From Alphaproteobacteria bacterium (GTDB lineage Bacteria; Pseudomonadota; Alphaproteobacteria; UBA828), in the NCBI GenBank assembly GCA_022826665.1, contig JAJDUK010000041.1:82738-146737 (forward strand): a stretch of 64,000 nucleotides of DNA. The letters run 5' to 3'. A model generated the notes under the pieces. It saw only the letters and a list, made by a program, of their open reading frames with translations. It did not search any database and was not told the origin of the DNA. A program made the position numbers and the translations under genes. Of this stretch, positions 2,762 through 34,854 are shown piece by piece; the stretch's first letter is position 1, and every line of letters begins with the position of its first letter.

Positions 2762-4057
2762 TCAGACGACGGTGACGGCCACCCGGTGCATCGCGTTGTT
2801 GAGATAGCCCTTGGGGTTCCAGGCGACGGCGTGGGGCTGGCTTACGCCCTCGGAATCCGTCGCCCTGGCCCAGACCTCGTAGTAGCCGGGTCCCGGAAAC
2901 TCGACCGCAGCGCGCCAGTTCTGCCAGGCGTGCGCGTTGACCGGCTCATCGAGCGTCGCGCCGCTCCAGGTCGCGCCGAAGTCGATGGAGAGCCTGACCG
3001 CGTCGATGGTCCGCTCGCCGGCCCAAGCGTGCCCGCGCACCTCCAGCGCCCGCGCCGCTGCCCTGTGCCCGGTGGCCGGGTGCGTGATCAGCGACTTGAC
3101 CGGCATCGCCTCGATGATGACGAACTCCGTCTCGTCCAGCCGCTCGCCCGGTGCCAGAGGGCGGCCCGGAACGCGGTAGGACGTGCCGGTCATCTTCGCC
3201 CCGTCGTGGACCCGGTCGCGCAGCCAGACGCGCGTAAGCCATTTTTGGGAGCACGACCCCGGCCATCCGGGGAAGACCAGACGCAGCGGCGCGCCGTTCA
3301 TGGGGTGGATCGGCCGGCCGTTCTGGGCGAAGGCGATGAGAGAGTCGGGGTCCAAAGCTTTGGCGATGGGCACGCCGCGCGAGATTGGGAGCCCGCTCGC
3401 TGCGCCGGAGGGGTGCGTGTCGGCACCCTCGTGCGCGGTGTAGAGGGCGTCGCTCTTCAATCCTGCCGCCTTGAGCACGTCGGCGAGGCGGACGCCGGTC
3501 CATTCCGAGCAGGCGACGGCGCCGTAGGTCCACTGCGCGCCGCCGGCCGGCGGGTCGAAGAAGGCGCGGCCGTTGCCCGCACACTCCAGCGTGAGCGCGC
3601 GGGTGACGACATCGAATCTGCGCTTCAGATCGGCGATGCCGAGCGTCAGCGGAGTCTCAACCAGGCCGTCGATGGTGAGCGTCCAGGAAGAGGCGTCCAC
3701 AGTCTGGGGCGGAATGCCGTTGTTGCGGATGAAGTGCCTCTCGGTCGGGGTGATGGCGTCGTCGAGCAAGTGCGCCGGGGTCTCCGCGCTGAGCGGCCGG
3801 TCGTTGAGCACGACCAGGCCGTCCTTGCCCTGAATGACGGGCTCGTCTGCGAGCGCGACGGGAATGAAGTGCGCCGACATATTGCGGTGGAAGGGGATGG
3901 TGCCGCCGACCAGCGCCGCCATGGCGGCAAGCCCGGCACCCTTAAGAAACCCGCGCCGGTCGGGATGAGCGACGCGGCCGAACAGCCGGCGGTCGGCCTT
4001 GTCGGGATCCTCCCGATAGAGCTCGTGCAGGCTCCGGCTCGCTGCGTTCTTGCGCAT
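2762..4057 (-). CDS. TAT-exported sulfite oxidase-family molybdopterin oxidoreductase
   Basis: 431 residues. Residues 33-40 carry a twin-arginine signal (DRRGFLKG) followed by a hydrophobic stretch, so the folded enzyme is exported to the periplasm with its cofactor. The molybdopterin domain has the family Cys ligand in LECAGNGRAFF (Cys159). The C-terminal third looks like the Mo-co dimerisation domain (GHAWAGERTIDAVRLS). There is no heme domain in this chain, so electrons would have to pass to a separate cytochrome; no such gene is adjacent. Both SorA-type sulfite dehydrogenases and SoxC-like proteins have this architecture; with no sox genes nearby I favour a sulfite dehydrogenase-like role. 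Ends just upstream of the MFS transporter gene, same strand. Confidence 0.85.
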   Translation of the reverse strand: MRKNAASRSLHELYREDPDKADRRLFGRVAHPDRRGFLKGAGLAAMAALVGGTIPFHRNMSAHFIPVALADEPVIQGKDGLVVLNDRPLSAETPAHLLDDAITPTERHFIRNNGIPPQTVDASSWTLTIDGLVETPLTLGIADLKRRFDVVTRALTLECAGNGRAFFDPPAGGAQWTYGAVACSEWTGVRLADVLKAAGLKSDALYTAHEGADTHPSGAASGLPISRGVPIAKALDPDSLIAFAQNGRPIHPMNGAPLRLVFPGWPGSCSQKWLTRVWLRDRVHDGAKMTGTSYRVPGRPLAPGERLDETEFVIIEAMPVKSLITHPATGHRAAARALEVRGHAWAGERTIDAVRLSIDFGATWSGATLDEPVNAHAWQNWRAAVEFPGPGYYEVWARATDSEGVSQPHAVAWNPKGYLNNAMHRVAVTVV

Positions 4058-4195
4058 CGCTCGCCTTATAACGGCTGCCGGCGGATACGATAGCGCTCAC
4101 AACGAGGAACGAACAGGCGGCCCACCGCCACGCGTCACGCTGCCGATCGGATAAACTGCGGGCCGTTTGGCAGGCACAGAGTCCAGGGGCCCACG

Positions 4196-4966
4196 ATGAC
4201 CACAGACTACGAGACCATGACGCTTTCGCGCGAAGGCCGGCTCGTCCGCATGGAGCTGACGCGACCCGAACGACTCAACGCCTTCGCCATGACCGGCACC
4301 CGCGAGCTGCTCGACGCGGCCAATCGCCTCGCCGCTGACGAGGATGTCCGCATGGTGTCGATCACCGGCTCGGGACGGGCGTTCTCCACCGGAATCGACC
4401 TCAAGGATCTCGCAGCCGGACAGATCGAGCCGAGCTACTTCGACATGTGGGACAGGGCGCTCCGGGTGTTCGAGACGATGGACAAGCTCGTCCTCTGCCT
4501 GATTCACGGCTATGCCGTCGGCGGCGGCCTGCAACTGGCGCTGGCCTGCGACATCCGCGCCTGCACACCCTCGGCCCAACTCGGCCTGCCGGCGATCAAG
4601 GAGGGGCTGATTCCCGGCTTAGGCACCTTCCGCCTAGCGCGCTATATCGGGCTCGGCCGTGCCAAGTCGCTGATTATCCGCGGCAACATGATCGACGGTG
4701 CCGAGGCCGAGCGCATCGGCATGGTCGATCACCTCGTCGCCGAGGATACGGCACTGGAGGAATTCGAAGCCCTAATCGGCGAGTACGCCAGCACCAACTC
4801 GGCCGGTTGCCGGGCCTCCAAGCAGATGCTGCTGGATTGCTTCGACCTCGGGTGGGAGGCCTTCTTCCACAAGTACCTGGTGCTGCAAGGTGACGCCGTG
4901 GCCGCGCCGGACTTCGCCGAGGCGATGGAGGCCTACCGCGCGGGCCGCGATCCGCGCTGGGAGTAA
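4196..4966 (+). CDS. Enoyl-CoA hydratase/isomerase (crotonase family)
   Basis: 256 residues, full length for a crotonase. The oxyanion-hole segments are visible: SGRAFSTGIDLKDL and GYAVGGGLQLALACDIR. The acidic residue in PAIKEGLIPG corresponds to one of the catalytic glutamates of hydratases, so the enzyme is probably active on an acyl-CoA. Substrate is unknown. It lies a few kilobases from the boxC/boxB aromatic cluster but is separated by minus-strand genes, so a role in the same pathway is possible but not shown. The start is the ATG at 4196, the first in frame with a family-like N terminus. Confidence 0.85.
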   Translation: MTTDYETMTLSREGRLVRMELTRPERLNAFAMTGTRELLDAANRLAADEDVRMVSITGSGRAFSTGIDLKDLAAGQIEPSYFDMWDRALRVFETMDKLVLCLIHGYAVGGGLQLALACDIRACTPSAQLGLPAIKEGLIPGLGTFRLARYIGLGRAKSLIIRGNMIDGAEAERIGMVDHLVAEDTALEEFEALIGEYASTNSAGCRASKQMLLDCFDLGWEAFFHKYLVLQGDAVAAPDFAEAMEAYRAGRDPRWE

Positions 4967-4979
4967 GCGCGCGCCCGCA

Positions 4980-5246
4980 TCAGCTGGCGCCGCTGCCCTC
5001 TCTCTTCGCCCGCATCTGCTTCGCGAATAGCCGCGCCGCGGCGAAGGCGCCATAGGTGGCGACGCAGAACGGCACGCAATAGGTCAGCCCGAGCTTGAAC
5101 CAGTTGATCGCGCCGTCGCCGGTGATGTGGTCGCCCTGATTGATCATGTTGAGGACCGTGCCGACGATGGCGCCGACAATCAGCGAGTTGCGGATCACGG
5201 GCCAGGAGAAGGTCCAGCGCAGCGGCGTCAGGGCGGGATCGTGCAT
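4980..5246 (-). CDS. NrtS-like small membrane protein
   Basis: 88 residues with two predicted membrane helices. The pattern NSLIVGAIVGTVLNMINQGD, then a polar linker, then LGLTYCVPFCVATYGA matches the small nitrate/nitrite transporter family NrtS. The conserved features are the N-Q/H-G-D at the end of helix 1 and the TY-VP-CV segment in helix 2. It is 13 bp from the convergent crotonase stop and 39 bp downstream of pheA on the same strand. No nitrate or nitrite reductase genes are in the window, so its physiological partner is unknown. The assignment rests on motif similarity of a very short protein. Confidence 0.65.
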   Translation of the reverse strand: MHDPALTPLRWTFSWPVIRNSLIVGAIVGTVLNMINQGDHITGDGAINWFKLGLTYCVPFCVATYGAFAAARLFAKQMRAKREGSGAS

Positions 5247-5285
5247 GTCGGCTTGGCTCCAGTATCCCTCTGCTGGGCGCCCCGA

Positions 5286-6188
5286 TCAGCGCCTGATGGC
5301 GGCGGCCTCGCGGCGGTAGGGATGGGCCGGGTAGACGCCCATGATCCGCACCTCGCGCGAGAAGTAGTCAAGCTCGCTCAGAGCGCGCGCCAATGCGGTT
5401 TCGGACGGATGCCCCTCGACCTCGGCGAAGAAGACCGTCGCCGAAAAGCTGCCGTCAACCATGTAGCTCTCCAGCTTGGTCATATTGACGCTGTTGGTGG
5501 CGAAGCCGCCGAGGCACTTGTAGAGCGCCGCCGGCACGTTGCGGCACTGGAACATGAAGGAGGTGATCACTGGCCCGGCGTCCGCGCCGGGATCGGTCGG
5601 CTGCCGCGACAGCACCACGAAGCGCGTCGTGTTGTGGGCGTCGTCCTCAATGTTCGCCTCGACGATCGCTAGCCCATAGGTTTCGGCGGCGAGCTGGGAA
5701 GCGATCGCGGCCCGGGTCGGGTCGCCCGTCGCCGCCACCTCGGCGGCAGCGCCTGCCGTATCGGCGTGCACGATCGGCACGAGACCGCGCCGCGCGATGA
5801 GCTTGCGACACTGGGAGAGCGCGTGCACGTGGGAACGCACGGTCTCGAGCTTCGACGGGTCGGCGCCGTCGCAGGCTAGGAGGTTGTGGCGCACGCGCTC
5901 GAAGTGTTCCTCGACGATGTGGAGGTCGGATTCCGGCAGGAGCTGGTGAATGTCGGCAACGCGGCCCGCCGCAGAGTTCTCGATCGGGATCATGGCAAGC
6001 CCGGCGCGACCCTGGGCGACGGCAGCGAAGGTATCGCTGAAGGTCTTGCAGGGGAGCGTGGTCATCGCCGGATAGCGGGCCATGCACGCAGCCTCGGAGA
6101 AGGCGCCCGGCGCCCCCTGGAAGGCGATTACGCCCGCCGGGTCCTCGGTCGGCCCGGCGCTGTCGGTTGAGACATTCGATGGAGACAT
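5286..6188 (-). CDS. pheA: Prephenate dehydratase
   Basis: 300 residues. Converts prephenate to phenylpyruvate, the committed step toward phenylalanine. The catalytic PDT domain starts at IAFQGAPGAFSEAA and includes the family signature around HNTTRFVVLSR, with the catalytic Thr-Arg-Phe. The C-terminal ACT domain (SFMFQCRNVPAALYKCLGGF, then NMTKLESYM) is the phenylalanine-binding regulatory part. There is no chorismate mutase domain, as usual in alphaproteobacteria. The frame extends further upstream without a stop, but the ATG at 6188 gives a normal N terminus. It is divergent from the CoA-ligase gene at 6334 with a 145-bp gap. Confidence 0.93.
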   Translation of the reverse strand: MSPSNVSTDSAGPTEDPAGVIAFQGAPGAFSEAACMARYPAMTTLPCKTFSDTFAAVAQGRAGLAMIPIENSAAGRVADIHQLLPESDLHIVEEHFERVRHNLLACDGADPSKLETVRSHVHALSQCRKLIARRGLVPIVHADTAGAAAEVAATGDPTRAAIASQLAAETYGLAIVEANIEDDAHNTTRFVVLSRQPTDPGADAGPVITSFMFQCRNVPAALYKCLGGFATNSVNMTKLESYMVDGSFSATVFFAEVEGHPSETALARALSELDYFSREVRIMGVYPAHPYRREAAAIRR

Positions 6189-6333
6189 GAGCAGGCGCCT
6201 GACGGGTGCGGGCGGCCGGTGCGGGCGCCCTTTCGACAGGCGCCGGACTATCCGCGCAGGGCGCGGGCGTGTCAACGCAGGCGATGCCGCCGGCGCGGGA
6301 TGCGCTATGGTGCGGCACCGCAAGAGGGATGCC

Positions 6334-7650
6334 ATGAACGACCCCGTTCGCCCCCCGCGCCCGGACGAGCTCGACCCCATCGAGACCGCGAGCCGCGACG
6401 AGATCGCGGCATTGCAGCTCACGCGGCTGCAAGCGACCCTGCGGCGCGCCTACGACAACGTGCCTCACTACAAGAGGTGTTTCGACGAAGCGGGCGTGAG
6501 CCCGGCCGATCTCACGTCCATCGACGACCTCGCCAAGTTCCCGTTCACGGTCAAGGACGACCTCCGCCTCAACTACCCCTTCGACATGTTCGCGGTGCCG
6601 CGGGAACAGATCATTCGCATCCATGCCTCGAGCGGCACCACCGGCATTCCGACCGTCGTGGGTTACACGAGGAACGACCTCGATACCTGGGCCGGCCTGG
6701 TGGCCCGCTGCCTGCGCGCCGCCGGCGCCCGCCCCGGCGACATGGTGCACATCGCCTACGGCTACGGGCTCTTCACCGGCGGCCTCGGCCTCCACGCCGG
6801 CGCCGAGAAGCTCGGCTGCACCGTGATCCCGGCGTCGGGCGGGTTCACCGAGCGACAGGTGGGGATGATCTACGACTTCGAGCCAAGGGTCATCGCCGTC
6901 ACGCCGTCCTACATGCTGGCGATCGGCGACGAGTTCGAGCGCCTGGGGCTGGACCCGCGGCGCTGCTCTCTGCAGATCGGCATTCACGGCGCGGAGCCCT
7001 GGACCGAAGCGATGCGCGAGGAGATCGAGACCCGCTTCGCCATGCAGGCGATCGACATCTATGGCTGCTCCGAGGCGATCGGGCCCGGCGTCTCCATCGA
7101 GTGCGTGGAGAGCAAGGACGGTCTCCACATCTGGGAAGACCACTTCCATCCCGAGATCATCGATCCCGAGACCGGCGCCGTGCTGCCCGACGGCGAGCCG
7201 GGAGAAATGGTCATCACGTCTCTCACCAAGGAAGCGTGCCCGATCATCCGCTACCGCACCCGCGACCTCTCCCGGCTGCTGCCGGGCACCGCGCGCTCCA
7301 TGCGGCGCATGCAGCGGGTCACGGGACGCAACGACGACATGCTCATCATCCGCGGCGTCAACCTGTTCCCGCCGTTCATCGAGGAGATCGTGCTCGAAGA
7401 CGAGCGTCTCTCGCCGCACTACTACCTTGAAGTGCGGCGGCCGGGCCGTCTCGATGAGTTGACGGTGGTCGTCGAAGCCAAGCCTAGTGCTGCCGATGAC
7501 GAGACGCGACGAGCGGCGGGGCGCGATCTCGCCGGCCGAATTCGGTCTCTGATCGGCATCAGCAGCAAAGTCACGGTCGGAGAGCCTGGCTCGATCGAAC
7601 GCTCGGCCGGCAAGGCCAAGCGCATCGTCGATCTTCGGCCCAAAGACTGA
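6334..7650 (+). CDS. paaK: Phenylacetate-CoA ligase family protein (aryl-CoA ligase)
   Basis: 438 residues, the usual PaaK length. Adenylate-forming enzyme that would activate an aromatic acid to its CoA thioester with ATP. Motifs visible: the phosphate-binding loop SSGTTGIPTVVGYT, the YGCSEAIGPG core motif, and the C-terminal hinge RVTGRNDDMLIIRG. The ATG at 6334 has AGAGGG a few bases upstream. It is followed by boxC and boxB on the same strand, so its substrate here may be benzoate or a related acid rather than phenylacetate; no other benzoate-CoA ligase is present. Substrate assignment is inference from context. Confidence 0.88.
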   Translation: MNDPVRPPRPDELDPIETASRDEIAALQLTRLQATLRRAYDNVPHYKRCFDEAGVSPADLTSIDDLAKFPFTVKDDLRLNYPFDMFAVPREQIIRIHASSGTTGIPTVVGYTRNDLDTWAGLVARCLRAAGARPGDMVHIAYGYGLFTGGLGLHAGAEKLGCTVIPASGGFTERQVGMIYDFEPRVIAVTPSYMLAIGDEFERLGLDPRRCSLQIGIHGAEPWTEAMREEIETRFAMQAIDIYGCSEAIGPGVSIECVESKDGLHIWEDHFHPEIIDPETGAVLPDGEPGEMVITSLTKEACPIIRYRTRDLSRLLPGTARSMRRMQRVTGRNDDMLIIRGVNLFPPFIEEIVLEDERLSPHYYLEVRRPGRLDELTVVVEAKPSAADDETRRAAGRDLAGRIRSLIGISSKVTVGEPGSIERSAGKAKRIVDLRPKD

Positions 7651-7759
7651 CGACGCCACAAAGATTCCCATGGATGGCGGAGAGCGGCCCGCCATATAGT
7701 CCGCAAGGAACAATCGATGTCGGGGCGCGTTGGCCGCTGCCCGATAGACGGCGGATACG

Positions 7760-9409
7760 ATGATCGACTTCCGGACCCATCCGGACCAATACCGCCACTG
7801 GCGGCTCTCCATCGACGGCGATGTCGCCAGGCTGGCGCTCGACGTGGACGAGGATGGCGGCATCGGCGGCGACTATGCGCTGAAGCTCAACTCCTACGAC
7901 CTCGGCGTCGATATCGAGCTCGCGGATGCCGCCCAGCGGCTCCGTTTCGAGCACCCGCAGGTGCGGGCGGTGGTGCTGACCTCGGCGAAGGAGCGCGTCT
8001 TCTCTGCCGGCGCGAACATTCCGATGCTCTCCCGCTCCTCGCACATCGACAAGGTCAACTTCTGCAAGTTCACCAACGAGACTCGCAACGCCATCGAGGA
8101 CGCCTCGGCCAACGCGGGCCAGCGCTGGATGACCGTGATCGCCGGCACCGCTGCAGGCGGCGGCTACGAGCTCGCGCTCGCGACCGACCACATCCTCCTG
8201 GTCGATGACGGCTCCACCGCCGTGTCGCTGCCCGAGGTGCCGCTGCTGGCGGTGTTGCCGGGCACCGGCGGGCTCACCCGCGTCGTCGACAAGCGATGCG
8301 TCAGGCGCGACCGTGCCGATTATTTCTGCACCACGGGCGAGGGCGTGCGCGGGCGCCGTGCGCTGGAGTGGAAGCTGGTGGACGAATTGGTGCCGCGCTC
8401 GCGGCTCGACGATGCCGTGGCGGCCCGCGCCGCAGCCTTGACGGGTGCATCGGACCGGCCGGCCGACGCGCGCGGGATCAAATTGCCCCCGCTGGAGCGC
8501 ACGGTGAGCGAAGACGCCCTGGTCTACCGCCACGTGCGCGTCGCGCTCGACCGGGCGCAGGGCACGGCGACGCTCACGGTGTCTGCGCCGGACACACCGC
8601 CGCCTGCCGAGCCCGAGGCGATCCACGCCGCCGGCGCCGACTTCTGGCCGCTGGCGCTCGCGCGCGAGCTCGACGACGCGATCCTGCACCTGCGCTTCAA
8701 CGAGCCGGCGCTCGGCACCTGGGTTCTCAAGACGACGGGAGCGGCGGCGCACGTCGCAGCGGCGGATGCCGCGCTCGCGGCCAACGCGGACGATTGGCTG
8801 GTGCGCGAGATCACCCTCTATCTGAAGCGCACCCTGAAGCGCCTCGACGTGAGCGCGCGCAGCCTGGTTGCGCTGATCGAGCCGGGCTCCTGCTTCGCCG
8901 GCACACTGCTGGAACTCGCGCTCGCGGCCGATCGCAGCTTCATGTTGGACGGCACCTTCGAAGGCTCGAACGAGGCGCCAGCGACGGTGCGGCTCACGGC
9001 GATGAACACCGGCCCGCTGCCGATGGCGAACGGGCTCTCGCGGCTGGCCAGCCGTTTCCTCGACGATGATGAAGCGCTCGCGGCAGCGCACGACGCCGTG
9101 GGCGCCGACCTCGACGCCGGGATGGCGGACGCGCTCGGGCTCGTCACCTTCATCCCCGACGACATCGACTGGGAGGACGAGGTGCGTATCGCCATCGAGG
9201 CACGTGCGGCGTTTTCGCCCGATGCGCTCAGCGGCATGGAAGCCTCGCTCCGCTTCGCTGGGCCGGAGACCCTGGAGACCAAGATTTTCGGGCGGCTATC
9301 CGCTTGGCAGAACTGGATATTCCAGCGCCCCAATACCGTCGGACCCGAAGGCGCGCTCAAGCTCTATGGGTCGGGCGTGCAGCCGACCTTCGACCGCAAC
9401 CGCGTCTAG
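7760..9409 (+). CDS. boxC: Benzoyl-CoA-dihydrodiol lyase (2,3-epoxybenzoyl-CoA dihydrolase)
   Basis: 549 residues, twice the length of a simple crotonase, as expected for BoxC. It opens the ring of 2,3-epoxybenzoyl-CoA without oxygen, giving 3,4-dehydroadipyl-CoA semialdehyde and formate. The crotonase core has SAKERVFSAGANIPML and TAAGGGYELALATDHIL, with LPEVPLLAVLPGTGG after it. A second crotonase-like half follows with GSCFAGTLLELALAADRSFM. The gene is followed 18 bp later by boxB with a good Shine-Dalgarno between, so the two are co-transcribed. Confidence 0.95.
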   Translation: MIDFRTHPDQYRHWRLSIDGDVARLALDVDEDGGIGGDYALKLNSYDLGVDIELADAAQRLRFEHPQVRAVVLTSAKERVFSAGANIPMLSRSSHIDKVNFCKFTNETRNAIEDASANAGQRWMTVIAGTAAGGGYELALATDHILLVDDGSTAVSLPEVPLLAVLPGTGGLTRVVDKRCVRRDRADYFCTTGEGVRGRRALEWKLVDELVPRSRLDDAVAARAAALTGASDRPADARGIKLPPLERTVSEDALVYRHVRVALDRAQGTATLTVSAPDTPPPAEPEAIHAAGADFWPLALARELDDAILHLRFNEPALGTWVLKTTGAAAHVAAADAALAANADDWLVREITLYLKRTLKRLDVSARSLVALIEPGSCFAGTLLELALAADRSFMLDGTFEGSNEAPATVRLTAMNTGPLPMANGLSRLASRFLDDDEALAAAHDAVGADLDAGMADALGLVTFIPDDIDWEDEVRIAIEARAAFSPDALSGMEASLRFAGPETLETKIFGRLSAWQNWIFQRPNTVGPEGALKLYGSGVQPTFDRNRV

Positions 9410-9427
9410 CGCGGGGAGAGGAGCCCG

Positions 9428-10843
<1,416 letters not shown>

Positions 10844-25715: not shown

Positions 25716-26054
25716 ATGGACGTAACGATGGATCGGAAGGACGGCGTGCTATCGGTGCGGGTGGAAGGCCGCATTGACGGCTCCACCGTGCTCGAGTTCC
25801 GAGAGGCGATCGAAACTGCGATCGCCGACAGCGACCGCGCCGTGATCGTGGACTGCGAGAGGCTCGAGTACCTGGGCAGCGCGGGTCTCCGCACGATACT
25901 CAACATCGCCAAGAGCCTTTCGAATCGCGACACGCGGTTCGCGCTGCACTCGCTTTCGGATCAGGTCCGGGTCGTCTTCGAGACGAGCGGCTTCGACACC
26001 ATCATCCCGGTCCACGCGTCGCGAGACGAAGCACTCGCTTCTGTAGACGGCTGA
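25716..26054 (+). CDS. STAS-domain protein, anti-anti-sigma factor type
   Basis: 112 residues, a single STAS domain. The signature LEYLGSAGLRTIL places Ser55 at the position phosphorylated in SpoIIAA/RsbV-type anti-anti-sigma factors (usual pattern D-S-S/T-G-L). The protein would bind an anti-sigma kinase when unphosphorylated. No RsbW-like kinase or sigma gene is in the window. A SpoIIE/RsbU-type phosphatase, the kind of enzyme that would reactivate it, is encoded at 27711-29696. The start ATG at 25716 has only a moderate Shine-Dalgarno (GGGGTCAGG); an ATG at 25728 is possible. It follows glcF by 82 bp. Confidence 0.85.
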   Translation: MDVTMDRKDGVLSVRVEGRIDGSTVLEFREAIETAIADSDRAVIVDCERLEYLGSAGLRTILNIAKSLSNRDTRFALHSLSDQVRVVFETSGFDTIIPVHASRDEALASVDG

Positions 26055-27710: not shown

Positions 27711-29696
27711 TCAGCCGGAGGCGCCGTGATCTGCCGTACCGTCATAGCGCAGCACGATGCAGGTGATGTCGTCGGACTGCTCTGCTCCGGCAGCGAAGTT
27801 AACCACCGCGCTGGTGACATTCTCAAGGATGGAATCGACAGGCAGATCGCGACCTTCGGCCAAGACCTCCTCCAGGCGTGCCTCGGTGAACTCCTCGTCG
27901 TCCACGTTCATGGCCTCGGTGATGCCGTCGGTGTAGAGGAACATCGTGTCTCCCGGAGCCAGATTTACCGCGTCCTCGGCGTAGGGCAATCCGGGCATGA
28001 CACCGACGGCCATGCCCCCGGTCATTGGCAACGCCGAAACTGCGCCAGGACGCTGAACCACGTAGGGCGGGTTGTGCCCGGCGTTGGCGTACACGAACTC
28101 TCCAGTCTCGGGATTCAGGATGCCGTAGAAGAGCGTCACGAACAGGTCCTGTGGGTTCTGCTCGCATATTGCGTCGTTGACTTCCTCCAGGCATGGGCCC
28201 GGGGTGGGGTGCCGGGCCGCGGCGGCCCGCATGACGGTCCGCGCGATCGCCATGAAGAACGCGGCCGGCACGCCCTTGCCGGAAACGTCCGCCATGACCA
28301 CGCTGAGGCGACCGTCGTCGAGGGTGAAGAAGTCGTAGAAGTCGCCACCCATTTCGCGCGCAGGCGTCATGACTGCGTGCCCCGAAAAGCTCGAACTCTC
28401 CGGCAACGTCTTGGGTAGGATCGCTCCCTGCAAGGCGTGCGCGATCATGAGTTCGGATTCCATCCGCTGCTTGGCCTTTTCGAGCTGCGCGTTCGATGCC
28501 TCCAGCTCGCGCGTGCGGGCACGGACCATGCTTTCCAGGTATTCCTCGCGCGCCTGGACCTGGCGCACCATGTTTTGAAAGACGCGGACCAGCGTCCCGA
28601 GCTCGTCCCGCCGAACGGCCACCGGGTCCAGCGTTTCCGGGGCGAAACTGAGCGTATCGGTATCCACCTCCGCTGCCGCCGTGGTCAACGCGGTGACCGG
28701 CTGCACGATACGGCGCGCGGAGAATGCCGCGATGAGCGAGCCGATGGCGAAGGCTGCCGCAGCCACGATCAATCCGTACTTGATGTGGTCCGCGAACAGC
28801 TGATCCAGATGGTCTCGCTGCATGTGGATTACGGCGGCGCCCGTGGCGACCCCGCCGCGATCGAGGATCGGCGCCGCCACATGGAGGGCATGCTCGCCGA
28901 GATACGAGACGGCGCCGTCGATGCCGAGGGCGCGGGTGGCAAGGTCCTGGTCCTCCGCCGACAACGCCGCCTCGGCTTCGGAGACGTCTCTGCCCCCGAA
29001 GGTGGCCATGCCGATGAGGTGAAGCAAGTCGTTGACCACCCAGATCGCCTGGACGGCTTCCCGCCCGGCCAGCGAATCCAGAGCAGCATCGATGCCGATG
29101 ACCTCGCCGGGACCGCCGGTGTCCGCCGCCAGCGTCCCGACCAGCACGGATTCGCGAGTGCCTGCGCGAACGCCGACGTACCTGATAGGCTTTTCCAGCC
29201 CCTTCGGCGGCATCGACTGGAAGGCGATGGAAAAACGCCGCCCCGAGACTAAGGCCTCCACGACACGGGGATCGATCCCGGCGGACGCCAGATCCGGCGC
29301 ATCGCTCTGGCTCAGGCCTTCGACCGCGCGGACCAGCGGCGTACCGGCCTCGTCCAGCAGCCAGACATCATCAACAACGCTGTCCGCCGTCAGCTTTGCG
29401 AAATAGATGCCGAGGGCGTCCTCGTCTTCCGGCTCATGCGCGCGGTTATCGAGATGGCGGGCGATGGCCAGCGCCTGCGCTTCCATCTGCCCGACGATCA
29501 TTCGGTCGATCTCGTCGGCGGTGTGCTCCGCACGGTTGGCTTCGCTCGCGATCAGCCCGGCGACGAGCCGCGCCTGATCTTCGGCCTGCTCGATCAAGGC
29601 ATCGCGCGCGAGCAAGCCCATCGCCAGCGCGACGCCGATGATCGCGACGCCGACGGACGCGGCGACCGTGATGATCAGTCGCCTGGAAAGGGTCAC
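27711..29696 (-). CDS. Membrane sensor with SpoIIE/RsbU-type PP2C phosphatase domain
   Basis: 661 residues from the GTG at 29696; an ATG at 29825 would overlap the upstream permease gene and I think it less likely. Order: helix 1 (residues ~7-27), a periplasmic sensor of ~275 residues, helix 2 (~306-326), a HAMP linker beginning RRIVQPVTAL, a coiled coil (~385-415), then the phosphatase. Metal-binding Asp residues of the PP2C core are present in EMGGDFYDFF, MADVSGKGVPA, FLYTDGITEAMN and QSDDITCIVLRY. It would dephosphorylate a STAS protein in response to a periplasmic signal. It lies 55 bp downstream of an ABC-like permease gene on the same strand, so probably in its operon. Confidence 0.9.
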   Translation of the reverse strand: MTLSRRLIITVAASVGVAIIGVALAMGLLARDALIEQAEDQARLVAGLIASEANRAEHTADEIDRMIVGQMEAQALAIARHLDNRAHEPEDEDALGIYFAKLTADSVVDDVWLLDEAGTPLVRAVEGLSQSDAPDLASAGIDPRVVEALVSGRRFSIAFQSMPPKGLEKPIRYVGVRAGTRESVLVGTLAADTGGPGEVIGIDAALDSLAGREAVQAIWVVNDLLHLIGMATFGGRDVSEAEAALSAEDQDLATRALGIDGAVSYLGEHALHVAAPILDRGGVATGAAVIHMQRDHLDQLFADHIKYGLIVAAAAFAIGSLIAAFSARRIVQPVTALTTAAAEVDTDTLSFAPETLDPVAVRRDELGTLVRVFQNMVRQVQAREEYLESMVRARTRELEASNAQLEKAKQRMESELMIAHALQGAILPKTLPESSSFSGHAVMTPAREMGGDFYDFFTLDDGRLSVVMADVSGKGVPAAFFMAIARTVMRAAAARHPTPGPCLEEVNDAICEQNPQDLFVTLFYGILNPETGEFVYANAGHNPPYVVQRPGAVSALPMTGGMAVGVMPGLPYAEDAVNLAPGDTMFLYTDGITEAMNVDDEEFTEARLEEVLAEGRDLPVDSILENVTSAVVNFAAGAEQSDDITCIVLRYDGTADHGASG

Positions 29697-29751
29697 AGGG
29701 AGCGATCGGCAACGGTGCCCAGCGACTGCCGACGCCGGGCGGGGGACGCCG

Positions 29752-30429
29752 TCATGGCAGCGGACTCCCAGTGAGGTCCGTGGTCTCCGTCTCCGGTCGG
29801 TGTGCCCGCCGCCTGAGATAGCCACTCAGCCGATTCATGCCGAACGTCAAAAGGAGGCTAAACCCGAGGAACCAGATCATGGCCCAAAGATAAACCCAGA
29901 GCGCGAGCCCCACCTTGTCGACCGCGCCGATCACCGTATCCGCCCGGCGTACGAGCTCAGGCACACCGATTACCGAGGCGGTGCTGGAGGCCATGACGAT
30001 GATCAGAAAGTAGCTGGTCCAAGCCGGCACGAACAGCAGCGCCTCCGCGATCTCGTGGCGGCGCAGATGCCGTATGGCGGCGAGCGCGTTGTCGGAGACG
30101 TAACCGGCGACGGCGATGCCCAACGCGAGCGACGCCTTGATCCACGCCGGGAATGTCACGGCAGCGCCGAAGAGAGTGAACTCGGTGGGGATGATGTAGG
30201 CGAGATAGAACAACATGACGAAGGTCGGCGCATTGCGCGCGAGCGTCGTCACCGCGCTGCCGCTATGCCTCACACTCCAGTGGGCGCCACCCCGCAGCAG
30301 CGCCAGCCCCAGGCCGACGATGGTACCGACGGCCATGGCAACCAAGGAAACAATGATGTTCCAGCCAAATCCCTCCGCCAGGTAAGGCGACCAGGCCCAC
30401 AGGACGTCGACGGTCTCCTGCGCGGTCAT
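29752..30429 (-). CDS. Polar amino acid ABC-type permease with shortened EAA loop
   Basis: 225 residues. HisM/GlnP-like permease: the region LARNAPTFVMLFYLAYIIP corresponds to the family R-x-T-P-x-x-x-x-L-F-x-x-Y, and SSTASVIGVPELVRRAD to the conserved end of the EAA region. Between them, residues 119-147 are only about 28 long where relatives have about 48: the EAA---G loop that docks the ATPase is missing. The ATG at 30429 overlaps the TGA of the upstream gene (ATGA), so the two are translationally coupled. No ATPase gene accompanies them. A receptor role is possible; it could also use a shared ATPase, though the missing loop argues against it. Confidence 0.85.
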   Translation of the reverse strand: MTAQETVDVLWAWSPYLAEGFGWNIIVSLVAMAVGTIVGLGLALLRGGAHWSVRHSGSAVTTLARNAPTFVMLFYLAYIIPTEFTLFGAAVTFPAWIKASLALGIAVAGYVSDNALAAIRHLRRHEIAEALLFVPAWTSYFLIIVMASSTASVIGVPELVRRADTVIGAVDKVGLALWVYLWAMIWFLGFSLLLTFGMNRLSGYLRRRAHRPETETTDLTGSPLP

Positions 30430-32027
30430 CGCGTGACGGCCTTGCCCCGCTCGAAACGCCGGAAGAGCTGCACCGTGATGATGACCAGAACGAAGTAACA
30501 GATCAGAAGTAGATTCATCATCACGTCGGCGTTGCCCTTTTCGGCCACGATGGAGGTGCTGGCGTGGACGAGCTCGGGCAGCGCGAGGGTACTGGCCATC
30601 CCTGTGGCTTTCACGATGTTGGCGGAGTTGCCCATGACCGCGGCGTAGCAGAGCGCGAATCCCCGCTGAATATCCCTGGGCGTGAGGCGGAGCCGGCGGC
30701 CGCCTGCAGCGGCAACATCGGCCGCCAGCGAGAACGCGATGGCATTGCTCGACGCCGCGTAGAGCGACAGCACCACGGCGGCGACGAGGAAGGCGTCGAG
30801 GGTGAATCCCAGAGCCAGCAGGACGCCGCCCAGGCCGAAGAACACGATATAGAGCTGGAGCAGCGGGGGCGTCATGCGCATGAACTCGCTGAACCCCCGC
30901 AGGAAGTGGCTCACGCCCGGCACTCGCCGGTGCATCAGCCAGCCGAACAGCACGCCGAGGACGATGCTGCCGACCACCGTGATCACTGACAGAAGCGCCG
31001 TGAGACCCAAGCCGTAGAGGAATACGTCTCGGTCGAGCGGGTCGTACAGAATGCTGATGTCGAGACCCGTCACCTCCATGATGGTCAGCGAGAAGCCGGA
31101 GAGGCCGCCGATGCCGCTGCCGGTGACGAGAGCAACCTCGCGGCATTCCAGCGGCCACTGACCCTGCTCGTTGCGCCGGCATTTCAACTCGCCGGCCTCA
31201 TCGACCTCCTGCCAGGTGGTGCGCGCGTCTCGGATGAACGGAGACGGCGGCAGGCCCCACTTCTTTTCCAGTGATTGCAGGAATCCGTCGCGATGCCACT
31301 GCGCCAGCGTGTCGCCCATCAGCTGATCGAGCGATCCACCGCCCTCCTCCTTGGCGATGGCGACGGCCCAGGGCAGCACGAAGCGAGTCGGCAGGGAGAC
31401 GGAATAGCCCTCCCAATCGCCGGTCTCCAGCTCGTGAAGAAGGAGGACCTCGTCGTAGATCCAGCCGACGCAATGCTCGTTGCGCAACGCTTGGGCGGCT
31501 TCGCGGGTGCTGTTGAACGCTGTCACGTCGAGCAGCAGCCGCTGCTTGGCCAGCCGGTTCCAGAGCGAGCCCTGAAGCCCGCAAACGGTCTGGCCGCGCA
31601 GGTCGGCCCAGGTGCCGATCTTGGCGCTGTCCCGCAGCAGCACGTTGGCGCCATCGCCGTAGTATTGCGGCTCGATCATGGTGACCAACTCGCGGCGGCT
31701 GCGGGTATCCCCCATGGTGGCGGCGACGATGTCGATCTCGCCCCGCCCTACCTTTTGCAGGCGATTGGCGCTGGTCACCGGCACCAGCTCGACGTCGACA
31801 CCGATGGCCTCTGCGAAGCCGCGCGCCACGTCCACGTCGTAGCCAACCAGCGTTCCCTCTGCGTCGCGGAAGCCGAAGGGCGCGTAGTCCTCCTTGACGC
31901 CCACGATGACGTGGCCTCGGTCCTGAATTTCCTGCAGCCGGTCGGCGAGCGCGGGAACGGCCAGACCTGCCCAGGCGGTGAGCAAGACCGCGAGAAGAAG
32001 CCACCACTTGGAAAGACGCCGGCTCAT
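30426..32027 (-). CDS. Fused periplasmic binding protein-ABC-type permease
   Basis: 533 residues. Residues 1-28 are a signal peptide ending ALA. Residues ~30-265 are a family 3 (polar amino acid type) binding domain: GHVIVGVKEDYAPFGFRD, LVGYDVDVARGFAEAIGVD, then GRGEIDIVAATMGDTRSR. A linker with several Cys follows, then a permease domain (~335-530) with the family segment EFMRMTPPLLQLYIVFFGLG. The EAA coupling motif expected around 440-475 cannot be recognised; the stretch is about ten residues short and reads GGRRLRLTPRDIQRGF. Binding protein-permease fusions exist in Gram-positive amino acid transporters, but this one has no ATPase partner nearby. The second permease gene overlaps its stop. 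Confidence 0.88.
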   Translation of the reverse strand: MSRRLSKWWLLLAVLLTAWAGLAVPALADRLQEIQDRGHVIVGVKEDYAPFGFRDAEGTLVGYDVDVARGFAEAIGVDVELVPVTSANRLQKVGRGEIDIVAATMGDTRSRRELVTMIEPQYYGDGANVLLRDSAKIGTWADLRGQTVCGLQGSLWNRLAKQRLLLDVTAFNSTREAAQALRNEHCVGWIYDEVLLLHELETGDWEGYSVSLPTRFVLPWAVAIAKEEGGGSLDQLMGDTLAQWHRDGFLQSLEKKWGLPPSPFIRDARTTWQEVDEAGELKCRRNEQGQWPLECREVALVTGSGIGGLSGFSLTIMEVTGLDISILYDPLDRDVFLYGLGLTALLSVITVVGSIVLGVLFGWLMHRRVPGVSHFLRGFSEFMRMTPPLLQLYIVFFGLGGVLLALGFTLDAFLVAAVVLSLYAASSNAIAFSLAADVAAAGGRRLRLTPRDIQRGFALCYAAVMGNSANIVKATGMASTLALPELVHASTSIVAEKGNADVMMNLLLICYFVLVIITVQLFRRFERGKAVTR

Positions 32028-32489
32028 GCGCCAACCCGCAGGTGCAAATTTGCCGATTCGGGAATGGGAATGTCGTTGGAGTGGCCGCCGTCCTCGGCGA
32101 CCTCCCTGTCAGAGCGAGAGACTCGAGCGCGCGATCGCATCACCTTGTCCGCGCCGAGGCCGTATTCACCATGGAGGCCCGGCGAGAAGCCTTGGCTGCA
32201 GCGCGTCGGATGTCGATGATCGTCGCGTGAATCATCGTGCCAACTCGATTTGACGTGGCCCAGGAAAGATCGGCGGATCATGCCGATGGCCTTCCGGGCC
32301 GTTGCCGCGGTGCTCCCTTGCCGCAACGAGTCGAAAGCCTATCCGATATGGCTAAATCACGAAATAGAGTATCGTAGTAGCAGCGAGGAGTCAGTTTCTG
32401 CTGTCGCTCTACCAGTGCTCGCCCTGCACGCGGTACCAGTGTGTGCACCAAGAACCTTCGCGAGCGGCAACAGACCTTCGGGGGTAGTG
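32028..32489. other. 462-bp divergent intergenic region between the two binding-protein genes
   Basis: Separates the minus-strand fused binding protein-permease (start 32027) from the plus-strand binding protein (start 32490). It is distinctly more AT-rich around 32330-32400 than the genes beside it, as expected for a control region. No gene is recognised. A TTGACG at 32250-32255 lacks a convincing -10 box at 17 bp. Promoters for both directions presumably lie here. Confidence 0.45.
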
Positions 32490-33428
32490 ATGACCGGCTT
32501 CGGTGAACGTCGATATCTCGCTCGGCCTCGCCCTTGGTCGCCCGTTCGATACGTTGGCCTTGTGCTTGCTCTCCTGACGTTGGCCGTGCCGCAACTCGCA
32601 CCGCCGGCGCACGCCGCCGCCGATGGCGTACTTGCCAAGATCGAGGCCGAGGGCGTCATTCGCGCCGGTACCAGGGCGAGCGCACCGCCCTTCGCCCGGA
32701 AGCTGGAAACAGGCAGTTTCGAGGGCTTCTCAGTCGACTTGCTGGAGGCCATTCGCGCCGCCGCAGAGAAGAAGGTGGGGCGAAGCGTTGCGCTGGAACT
32801 GCACGAGGTAACGCCCGCTGACCGGCTCGAGCGAGTCGCTGCGGGCGAGCTCGACATCGTGTGCGGCATCACGACGCCCACCTGGGATCGGGAAGCGCTG
32901 GTCGACTTTTCCGTGCCGTTCTTCCGCGACGGCACGCGCATCCTGATTTATCGGGAAAAGACCATGGGCGGCGTGGACCTCGGAATGCTCGATATCGGGG
33001 TGGTCGAGGGCACCACCACAGTAACGATCGTCCAGGACCAGCTACCCACGGCTAACCTGCATCTCTTCCCCACCATGAAGGACGCCATGACCGCGCTTGC
33101 GGCAGGCGAGGTGAGCGGAGTCGCCAATATCGGCATCACTCTGCTGGGGCTAGCAGCCAAGCAGGAACCGCGTCGCAGCGTGGTCCTACTGCCGCGCACC
33201 TTCGCGCTTGCCATGGAAACGCTGGCCTGCGTCCTGCCGCAAGACGACAGCCCGTGGCGCGACACGGTCAACCGGGTCATCATAGACATGTTCTCCGGCG
33301 TCAAGGACGCGAACAGCCGCTACGACGAGATCTATGAGCGCTGGTTCGGGCGCGACAGCACGATCTTTTATCCGCTCGACCGCGACAATCGCACTTATCT
33401 CAGCACCGTTTCGATCTGGGCGCGCTGA
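32490..33428 (+). CDS. Family 3 periplasmic solute-binding protein
   Basis: 312 residues. The N terminus has a hydrophobic export segment (VGLVLALLTLAVPQLAPPA) ending AHA-A, then a binding domain with EGVIRAGTRASAPPFARK, GSFEGFSVDLLEAIRAAAEK, AGELDIVCGITTPTWDRE and VDFSVPFFRDGTRILI. These match the polar amino acid-binding family; binding of an amino or carboxylic acid is likely, but the ligand is unknown. A GGGGGT precedes the ATG at 32490. It is divergent from the fused binding protein-permease and may share its control region. It has no transporter genes downstream; zur follows. Confidence 0.87.
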   Translation: MTGFGERRYLARPRPWSPVRYVGLVLALLTLAVPQLAPPAHAAADGVLAKIEAEGVIRAGTRASAPPFARKLETGSFEGFSVDLLEAIRAAAEKKVGRSVALELHEVTPADRLERVAAGELDIVCGITTPTWDREALVDFSVPFFRDGTRILIYREKTMGGVDLGMLDIGVVEGTTTVTIVQDQLPTANLHLFPTMKDAMTALAAGEVSGVANIGITLLGLAAKQEPRRSVVLLPRTFALAMETLACVLPQDDSPWRDTVNRVIIDMFSGVKDANSRYDEIYERWFGRDSTIFYPLDRDNRTYLSTVSIWAR

Positions 33429-33538: not shown

Positions 33539-34045
33539 ATGAACACCACGCGGGGCGACAAGCCGGCCTTCCACGATGGCGGGCACGAGCATCAGTCCTG
33601 TATCGAGGACGCGCTCGCCCGCGCCGATGACGTGTGCAGAGAGCGCGGCGTTCGTCTCACCCCGTTGCGGCGCAGGGTGCTGGAGCTGGTCTGGAGCAGC
33701 CATCGGGCGGTCAAGGCCTATGATCTGCTCGCGGCGCTCGGCGATGCGGTGGGCGCAGCAAAGCCGCCGACTGTGTACCGCGCCCTCGAGTTCCTTATGG
33801 CCCAGGGTCTGGTCCATCGAATCGACAGCCTCAACGCCTTCGTCGGCTGCCCGCAGCCCGACCACCGCCACAGCGCGCAATTCCTCATATGCGGAGGCTG
33901 CGGCGACGTATCGGAGCTGAATGCGGCGAGTATCGACCGTGCCGTTGCCGATCAGGCGGCAGACTCCGACTTTGCGCTCTCACGCTCGATTATCGAGCTT
34001 CACGGCAGATGTCCGCGCTGCGCGACGCTTCCACCGACCCCCTGA
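33539..34045 (+). CDS. zur: Zinc uptake regulator, Fur family
   Basis: 168 residues. Winged-helix part RGVRLTPLRRRVLELVWSSH with the recognition region PPTVYRALEFLMAQGLVHRI. The structural zinc site is formed by two CxxC motifs (Cys118/121 in CGGC and Cys158/161 in CPRC), and the regulatory His/Cys cluster is in PQPDHRHS. The His-rich N terminus is typical of Zur rather than Fur. Its location directly before znuC and znuB supports zinc. GAGGTAGG lies upstream of the ATG. The end overlaps the start of znuC by 37 bp. Confidence 0.92.
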   Translation: MNTTRGDKPAFHDGGHEHQSCIEDALARADDVCRERGVRLTPLRRRVLELVWSSHRAVKAYDLLAALGDAVGAAKPPTVYRALEFLMAQGLVHRIDSLNAFVGCPQPDHRHSAQFLICGGCGDVSELNAASIDRAVADQAADSDFALSRSIIELHGRCPRCATLPPTP

Positions 34046-34854
34046 CCCGCCCGCCGCAGGACGTCGTTGAGGGAGCGCCGCTCGCCTCGGCTCGCGACCT
34101 GGTCGTGCGCTACGGCGGCCGCACGGTGCTGGATCGGGTCTCGATCGAGGTTCGCCGCCGCGAGGTAGTGAGCCTGATCGGGCCGAACGGGGCCGGCAAG
34201 ACCACGGCCGTGCGCGCCCTGCTCGGCCTCATCAAGCCGGATGCGGGCGTCGTCCATCACGCGCCCGGCGTCGTGGTGGGCTACGTCCCTCAGCGTATCG
34301 AGCCGCAGGAGCTCCTGCCACTCACCGCCCGCCGCTTCCTCGCGATGGCGGGGCGGCGCGCCCGCGCCGATATCGTCGCGGTGTTGGACGAAGTGGGAGC
34401 GGCGCCCCTGATCGACCGTCAGCTCAGCGACGTTTCCGGCGGCGAGTTCAGGCGTGTCCTGCTCGCCCGCGCCCTGCTACGAAACCCCGACCTGCTGGTG
34501 CTGGACGAGCCGATCCAGCAGGTCGATTTCGCGGGCCAGTTTGCCATGCACCAATTGATCGCCCGCCTGCGGAATCGGCGCGGCTGCGGCGTGCTGGTCA
34601 TCTCCCATGACCTCCACCTGGTGTTGGGCGCGACCGACCGCGTTGTGTGCATCAACGGGCATGTCTGTTGCGCCGGCGAGCCCGAAGCGGTGAGCCGGCA
34701 CCCCGAGTACATCTCGCTGTTCGGCCCCGGTGTAGCCGCCGCGCTCGCGGTCTACACCCACGACCCCGCCCACCGCCACGACCACCCCATCGCGGTGGCA
34801 CCGGTCAAGGACGGCTCACCCGACGCCGGTTTCGAGCCCGACCGGGCCGACTGA
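34009..34854 (+). CDS. znuC: Zinc ABC transporter ATP-binding protein
   Basis: 281 residues. Walker A GPNGAGKTT, signature VSGGEFRRVLLARALL, Walker B LLVLDEP, and the His switch in ISHDLHLVLG. Energises high-affinity zinc import with ZnuB. The C-terminal tail carries a His-rich patch (HDPAHRHDHP), which fits a zinc role. The ATG at 34009 overlaps zur; a later start is possible but no other ATG precedes the Walker A motif. The zinc-binding protein gene znuA is not present beside it. Confidence 0.93.
   Translation: MSALRDASTDPLTRPPQDVVEGAPLASARDLVVRYGGRTVLDRVSIEVRRREVVSLIGPNGAGKTTAVRALLGLIKPDAGVVHHAPGVVVGYVPQRIEPQELLPLTARRFLAMAGRRARADIVAVLDEVGAAPLIDRQLSDVSGGEFRRVLLARALLRNPDLLVLDEPIQQVDFAGQFAMHQLIARLRNRRGCGVLVISHDLHLVLGATDRVVCINGHVCCAGEPEAVSRHPEYISLFGPGVAAALAVYTHDPAHRHDHPIAVAPVKDGSPDAGFEPDRAD

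Follow-up and report, generated by a model that had tools for sequence, protein, structure and literature searches.

An ATPase-free ABC-permease cassette linked to a partner-switch phosphatase, a probable transporter-derived receptor in an alphaproteobacterial genome

Introduction

ABC importers are among the commonest membrane proteins of bacteria. In type I importers, energy coupling from the ATPase to the permeases runs through a cytoplasmic EAA loop, one in each permease, where the ATPase docks. The binding proteins of the SBP_bac_3 type hold the backbone of the amino acid by an Arg and an Asp residue. The membrane part of an ABC transporter can also signal to a membrane enzyme, as in PstSCAB-PhoR.

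The closest described transporters to the cassette reported here are the polar amino-acid ABC importers (ArtQN/HisQM/GlnPQ type; PDB 4YMS). The SBP_bac_3 domain and two homologous permeases are common to both, and the cassette descends from these importers in the tree. The fusion of binding protein and permease is also found in GlnPQ (PDB 6h30). However, polar amino-acid importers have an ATPase and EAA loops, whereas the cassette has neither and is linked to signalling enzymes instead.

The SiaABC pathway of Pseudomonas aeruginosa is composed of a phosphatase, a kinase, and a target protein (PMC7647112). The likeness is that a kinase and a membrane PP2C phosphatase act against each other on a STAS-like protein, and the two phosphatases are related in their C-terminal part. 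SiaA is the nearest named family, and no phosphatase of known role is nearer, but the score of 108.5 bits against an equivalog cut-off of 700 places the cassette phosphatase outside the family. The cassette differs further in the upstream binding protein-permease pair and in a kinase of the HATPase_c_2 (RsbW) type.

The nearest concept is that of the S-component fold/5TMR kinases, which reuse a transport membrane fold as a receptor and were called the first prokaryotic case of a transceptor (PMC11109136). These kinases have the ECF S-component fold and a histidine kinase output, whereas the cassette has the type I importer permease fold. Of the transceptor concept, the cassette shows the transporter homology and the loss of the motor, and the receptor role is proposed here. 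BceAB-BceS, cited in PMC11109136, is an ABC transporter that interfaces with a histidine kinase. The transporters of BceAB-BceS and PstSCAB-PhoR keep their ATPase, unlike the cassette. No described system of this architecture was found in the open-access literature, although a report that we have not seen may exist.

Results and Discussion

Gene organization

The window, i.e., the whole stretch of DNA that was analysed, is 64,000 nucleotides long. The following genes of the window are considered.

25716-26054, plus strand: STAS anti-anti-sigma factor (STAS 73.7 bits; TIGR00377 80.5 bits, above cut-off)
27711-29696, minus strand: HAMP-SpoIIE (PP2C) membrane phosphatase, 661 aa
29752-30429, minus strand: permease 2, 225 aa
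30426-32027, minus strand: binding protein-permease fusion, 533 aa
32250-33428 (ORF; likely start 32475), plus strand: divergent second periplasmic binding protein, SBP_bac_3, GrrP-like
33889-34854: znuC, ORF with Walker A and ABC signature

The fusion, permease 2, and phosphatase genes lie head to tail, with a 4-bp overlap between the first two and 55 bp before the phosphatase. The order, strand, and gaps given by an earlier sequence-only reading of this DNA were right. The same reading placed a second binding protein divergently, which was confirmed by an SBP_bac_3 match of 76 bits, and named znuC as the only ABC ATPase. The scan of the window ORFs for Walker A and ABC signature agreed, since znuC was the sole match and no cognate ATPase was found in the cassette. 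The STAS gene, located 1.7 kb past the phosphatase with a LysR gene in between, and the missing EAA loops were absent from that reading.

The fusion comprises a signal peptide, an SBP_bac_3 domain (PF00497, 93 bits in Pfam), a Cys-containing linker, and the C-terminal permease 1. Permease 2 and the permease part of the fusion were both unmatched in Pfam, including PF00528. The doubt whether both are permeases was dropped because of their NCBIfam and 4YMS profile matches. The HEQRo_perm_3TM model gave 41.3 bits for permease 1 and 41.6 bits for permease 2, just under the cut-off of 42.2, and the profile matches to the ArtQ permease chain 4yms_D had E values of 1.2e-8 and 5e-4. The AlphaFold models were poor (pLDDT 57.6 for permease 2 and 45.9 for the fusion).

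In 11 relatives, residues Arg111 and Asp192 of the fusion did not vary, and in the alignment they match the Arg and Asp of solved amino-acid binding proteins. Because the binding domain keeps both residues, its ligand is likely amino-acid-like. Two features of type I importers are present, i.e., a homologous permease pair and an SBP family 3 domain with amino-acid binding residues. The other two, i.e., an EAA loop in each permease and a dedicated ATP-binding subunit, are absent.

The divergent binding protein scored 131.7 bits against the GrrP model TIGR04262, below the cut-off of 190. It is conserved and divergent in the PP2C-type relatives and also occurs in the sister clade described below. 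It was absent from L019, which has a different upstream flank, and the L028 contig starts too late to include it. In L019, a close relative, both this gene and the znu/fur flank were missing within 8 kb, which may be a rearrangement or a misassembly. By eye, the protein (32475-33428) seems to be without the usual Asp that holds the amino group of the ligand, so its ligand may be a different one, or it may serve as a partner.

Conservation of the cassette

In one scan of GTDB contigs, 15 cassette loci were found at 67-96% identity, in MAGs titled Rhodospirillales, Alphaproteobacteria, Gammaproteobacteria, and Defluviicoccus. A class-wide search added three genomes with the cassette (G280, G168, and G189), and the overall identity of relatives with the same gene order was 53-96%. 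Within the genus, all eight genomes searched carried the fusion, and none of 13 from other genera of the family did.

The order of fusion, permease 2, and phosphatase was kept at every locus with a long enough contig, so the arrangement is not due to chance. In L024-L026 and L029-L032, the flanking genes were wholly different from those of the window, and the cassette was kept despite this, which marks it as a unit. The sequence-only reading depended on the phosphatase co-occurring with the permeases. This was borne out, as the phosphatase was present in every PP2C-type locus with a long enough contig. RsbW and STAS genes lie nearby in relatives.

Loss of the EAA loops and the ATPase

Both permeases were compared with their nearest conventional importers. 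The EAA segment of permease 2 has 37 residues against 57 in every conventional homologue, i.e., 20 residues were lost, near 30020-30070. In the HMM alignment of permease 2 with the ArtQ chain 4yms_D, the gap falls exactly at the EAA loop. In permease 1, the segment is 9-10 residues shorter and remodelled, and the motif is gone (about 30690-30716). Over all homologues examined, the segment lengths were bimodal, 37 or about 50 residues against 57 or 60.

No ATPase gene was found within 1.5 kb of the loop-less permeases (0 of 14 genomes), whereas 33 of the 34 loop-bearing loci had one nearby (31 within 1.5 kb and 2 more in the same gene cluster); behind these counts stands a small number of evolutionary events, for the most part a single loss, so they are not independent trials. 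The single loop-bearing locus without an ATPase was L077/L102. In the loop-bearing L113, the ATPase was missing at first and was found via L150. An ATPase gene conserved in close relatives would have spoken against the earlier reading. None was found in the relatives at 53-96% identity, and it was present only in the loop-bearing sister clade at about 40% identity.

From these alignments and gene counts, the motor loss is established. Against ATP-driven transport, the loss of both loops weighs more heavily than the missing ATPase gene alone. With the two loops and the ATPase lost, the permeases would be unable to run an ATP-driven transport cycle.

Origin of the cassette

A tree was built from both permeases with the loop columns excluded. 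All loop-less permeases formed one clade inside the conventional importers (FastTree 1.0; ultrafast bootstrap 96). Its sister clade (support 1.0/100; about 40% identical) consists of three genomes, represented by L087 with L147, L088, and L089. This clade holds the EAA loops, the ATPase, the binding protein-permease fusion, and the second binding protein, and also a SAM methyltransferase, STAS, a PP2C phosphatase, and RsbW. In the case of L087, the phosphatase and ATPase are located on the adjoining stretch L147.

The state of the sister clade, with loops and ATPase, looks ancestral. Its gene set and the tree indicate that the importer joined the partner switch first, and that it lost its motor and the two loops later. 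At the level of sequence, these data establish that the ancestor of the cassette was an importer with an ATPase and with a partner switch linked to it by then.

Phosphatase and partner switch

The phosphatase matched SpoIIE (PF07228) with 183 bits and HAMP with 26.4 bits. Its PP2C Asp motifs, i.e., GGDFYD, DVSGKG, YTDG, and SDD, are the usual ones. The window STAS is 55% identical to the STAS of L030, which adjoins the ammonium transporter (Amt) and glutamine synthetase III (GSIII) genes beside the cassette. STAS orthologues, at 48-57% identity to the L030 copy, were found within about 6 kb of the cassette in L018, L020, L022, L023, L025, L026, L029-L032, and L084. The window STAS is the likely substrate of the phosphatase.

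An RsbW-like kinase gene (HATPase_c_2) is convergent with and adjoins the phosphatase gene in L024-L026, L029, L030, and L032. It is nearby in L031 and inside the operon in L086. In the own genome, the orthologue (55% identical) is on another contig, C21:20895-21269, unlinked to the cassette, and with the same query no other RsbW protein of the genome exceeded 36% identity. The parts of an Rsb/SpoIIA-type switch, i.e., SpoIIE/PP2C phosphatase, STAS, and HATPase_c_2 kinase, are present, the kinase being unlinked in the own genome. Partner switches like the one downstream are a known kind of system, and the novelty lies in the architecture.

The ammonium transporter gene was found in L025/L026 and in L029-L032/L084. 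Where the contig is long enough, glutamine synthetase III accompanies it, and the genes occur in two different orders. These neighbours suggest a nitrogen-related role of the cassette. The nutrient input guessed in the earlier reading is helped by their presence in two arrangements.

Other partner-switch genes were seen in the own genome. In L047 (C32:24000-42000), a second RsbW-like gene (8295-8717) lies among putative solute-binding protein genes (3883-4710 and 8893-10056). A response regulator and a GPP34 gene are also present there, and the group may be a further partner switch linked to binding proteins. GPP34 (Golgi phosphoprotein 3-like) genes adjoin STAS or lie near RsbW in the own genome as well as in several relatives (L030 846-1927; L047 10527-11183).

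Loop-less cassettes with other neighbours

Three families include loop-less genomes, five in total, in which the place of the phosphatase is taken by a dCache class III nucleotide cyclase. The gene order is cyclase, SAM methyltransferase (not clear in L123), fusion, and permease 2. For L103 and L122, Pfam matches confirmed the cyclase domains. These cyclase-type cassettes are located as follows.

L096, 2785-7896: cyclase-type cassette
L103, 1934-7076: cyclase-type cassette
L122, 1606-6738: cyclase-type cassette
L123, 4672-9790: cyclase-type cassette
L149, about 3560-8653: cyclase-type cassette

Four loop-less genomes of another class (G548, G1045, G667, and G1075; loci L121, L132, L124, and L133) had no evident adjoining output enzyme. 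In L121 and L132, a methyltransferase gene accompanies the fusion and permease 2. In L124 (8243-10518) and L133 (6827-9140), the loop-less fusion and permease 2 lie beside apparent type VI secretion genes, TssB/TssC-like by eye, and a very long Ala-rich protein.

A SAM methyltransferase gene adjoins the cassette in the sister clade, in most PP2C-type loci, and in two loci without an output enzyme. Three examples are listed. No homologue was detected in the window.

L030, 7087-7926: SAM methyltransferase
L089, 12172-13017: SAM methyltransferase
L121, 6628-7428: SAM methyltransferase

Proposed function

One permease class is paired with two unrelated membrane signalling enzymes, and this is the main argument for the permeases being a receptor module. 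The cassette is probably an ATPase-free ABC-permease receptor that would sense an amino-acid-like ligand and control the partner-switch phosphatase. The transporter-derived origin proposed in the sequence-only reading is seen in the importer homology and in the loss of motor and loops; the receptor role is what we infer from it. Other readings of the cassette were weighed.

The loop-less pair might be an ATP-independent channel or facilitator that passes the solute down its gradient, with the phosphatase sensing something else. A translocation path could persist, as the transmembrane regions and the Arg/Asp of the binding site are conserved. However, the recurrent pairing with PP2C and cyclase enzymes and the partner-switch genes would be left unexplained, and high-affinity binding proteins make little sense in passive uptake. 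This reading is considered unlikely.

The genes might also be co-regulated but separate in function. The phosphatase would read its own sensor domain, and the cassette would store or scavenge the ligand. The phosphatase indeed has an N-terminal sensor region of about 300 residues with weak similarity to dCache, which might be independent of the permeases. To our knowledge, SiaA has no permease partner. It acts in a partner switch (PMC7647112). However, the linkage holds strictly across relatives of 53-96% identity, and permeases of the same class lie beside a second dCache-type output enzyme, so a separate function is judged improbable.

It is very unlikely that the cassette is still an importer with an ATPase borrowed from elsewhere in the genome. 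The MsiK ATPase serves several importers, and the own genome has many ABC ATPases. However, the best-matching amino-acid-type ones adjoin their own permeases and none is orphan, which makes borrowing unlikely; the docking loops are gone from both permeases, and a local ATPase is missing from all 14 loop-less genomes. An ABC ATPase near the cassette in L085 (2536-3618) was considered as cognate and rejected, being 35% identical and part of a separate transporter cluster, which also includes a binding protein gene and two membrane genes.

A decaying importer remnant, as the lost ATPase and loops could be read, is hardly credible and is refuted by selection and conservation: dN/dS was 0.08-0.12 for the fusion, 0.07-0.16 for permease 2, and 0.13-0.16 for the phosphatase, which indicates maintained genes, the frames were open in all relatives, and the same deletion was retained over deep divergence.

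For the receptor, the following mechanism is proposed. In the periplasm, the fused binding protein would catch its ligand, which would be amino-acid-like and probably related to nitrogen. The ligand-loaded binding domain, held by the fusion, would dock on and switch the permease pair. Permeases 1 and 2 would pair as a heterodimer, as the permeases of the ancestral importers did. Their ligand-dependent conformational change would pass sideways to the membrane phosphatase, via the membrane or the sensor region, so that ligand binding would change the phosphatase activity. The phosphatase (sensor-HAMP-PP2C) and the RsbW-like kinase, acting against each other, would set the phosphorylation of STAS, and its phosphorylation state would control the partner of the kinase. 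The formation of the complex, the direction of the signal, the ligand, and the final target are predicted in this scheme from the genes and their neighbours.

Conclusions

Two defining features of ABC importers are missing and no named receptor class was matched, so the architecture is considered categorically new. On balance, we favour a new class of receptors that would span two or more bacterial classes within a single phylum. In these receptors, permease pairs with a fused SBP would have lost the ATPase and both loops once, and would then have been wired to a PP2C partner switch, a dCache cyclase, and perhaps others.

If true, this would be a clear bacterial case of an importer turned receptor, in which the motor and its gripping loops were lost and the signalling enzyme was retained. 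The intermediate, i.e., an importer with a partner switch and with ATPase and loops intact, is still living. The missing loop would be a 20-residue signature for finding more such receptors in any genome, and permease signalling without transport would become a directly testable idea.
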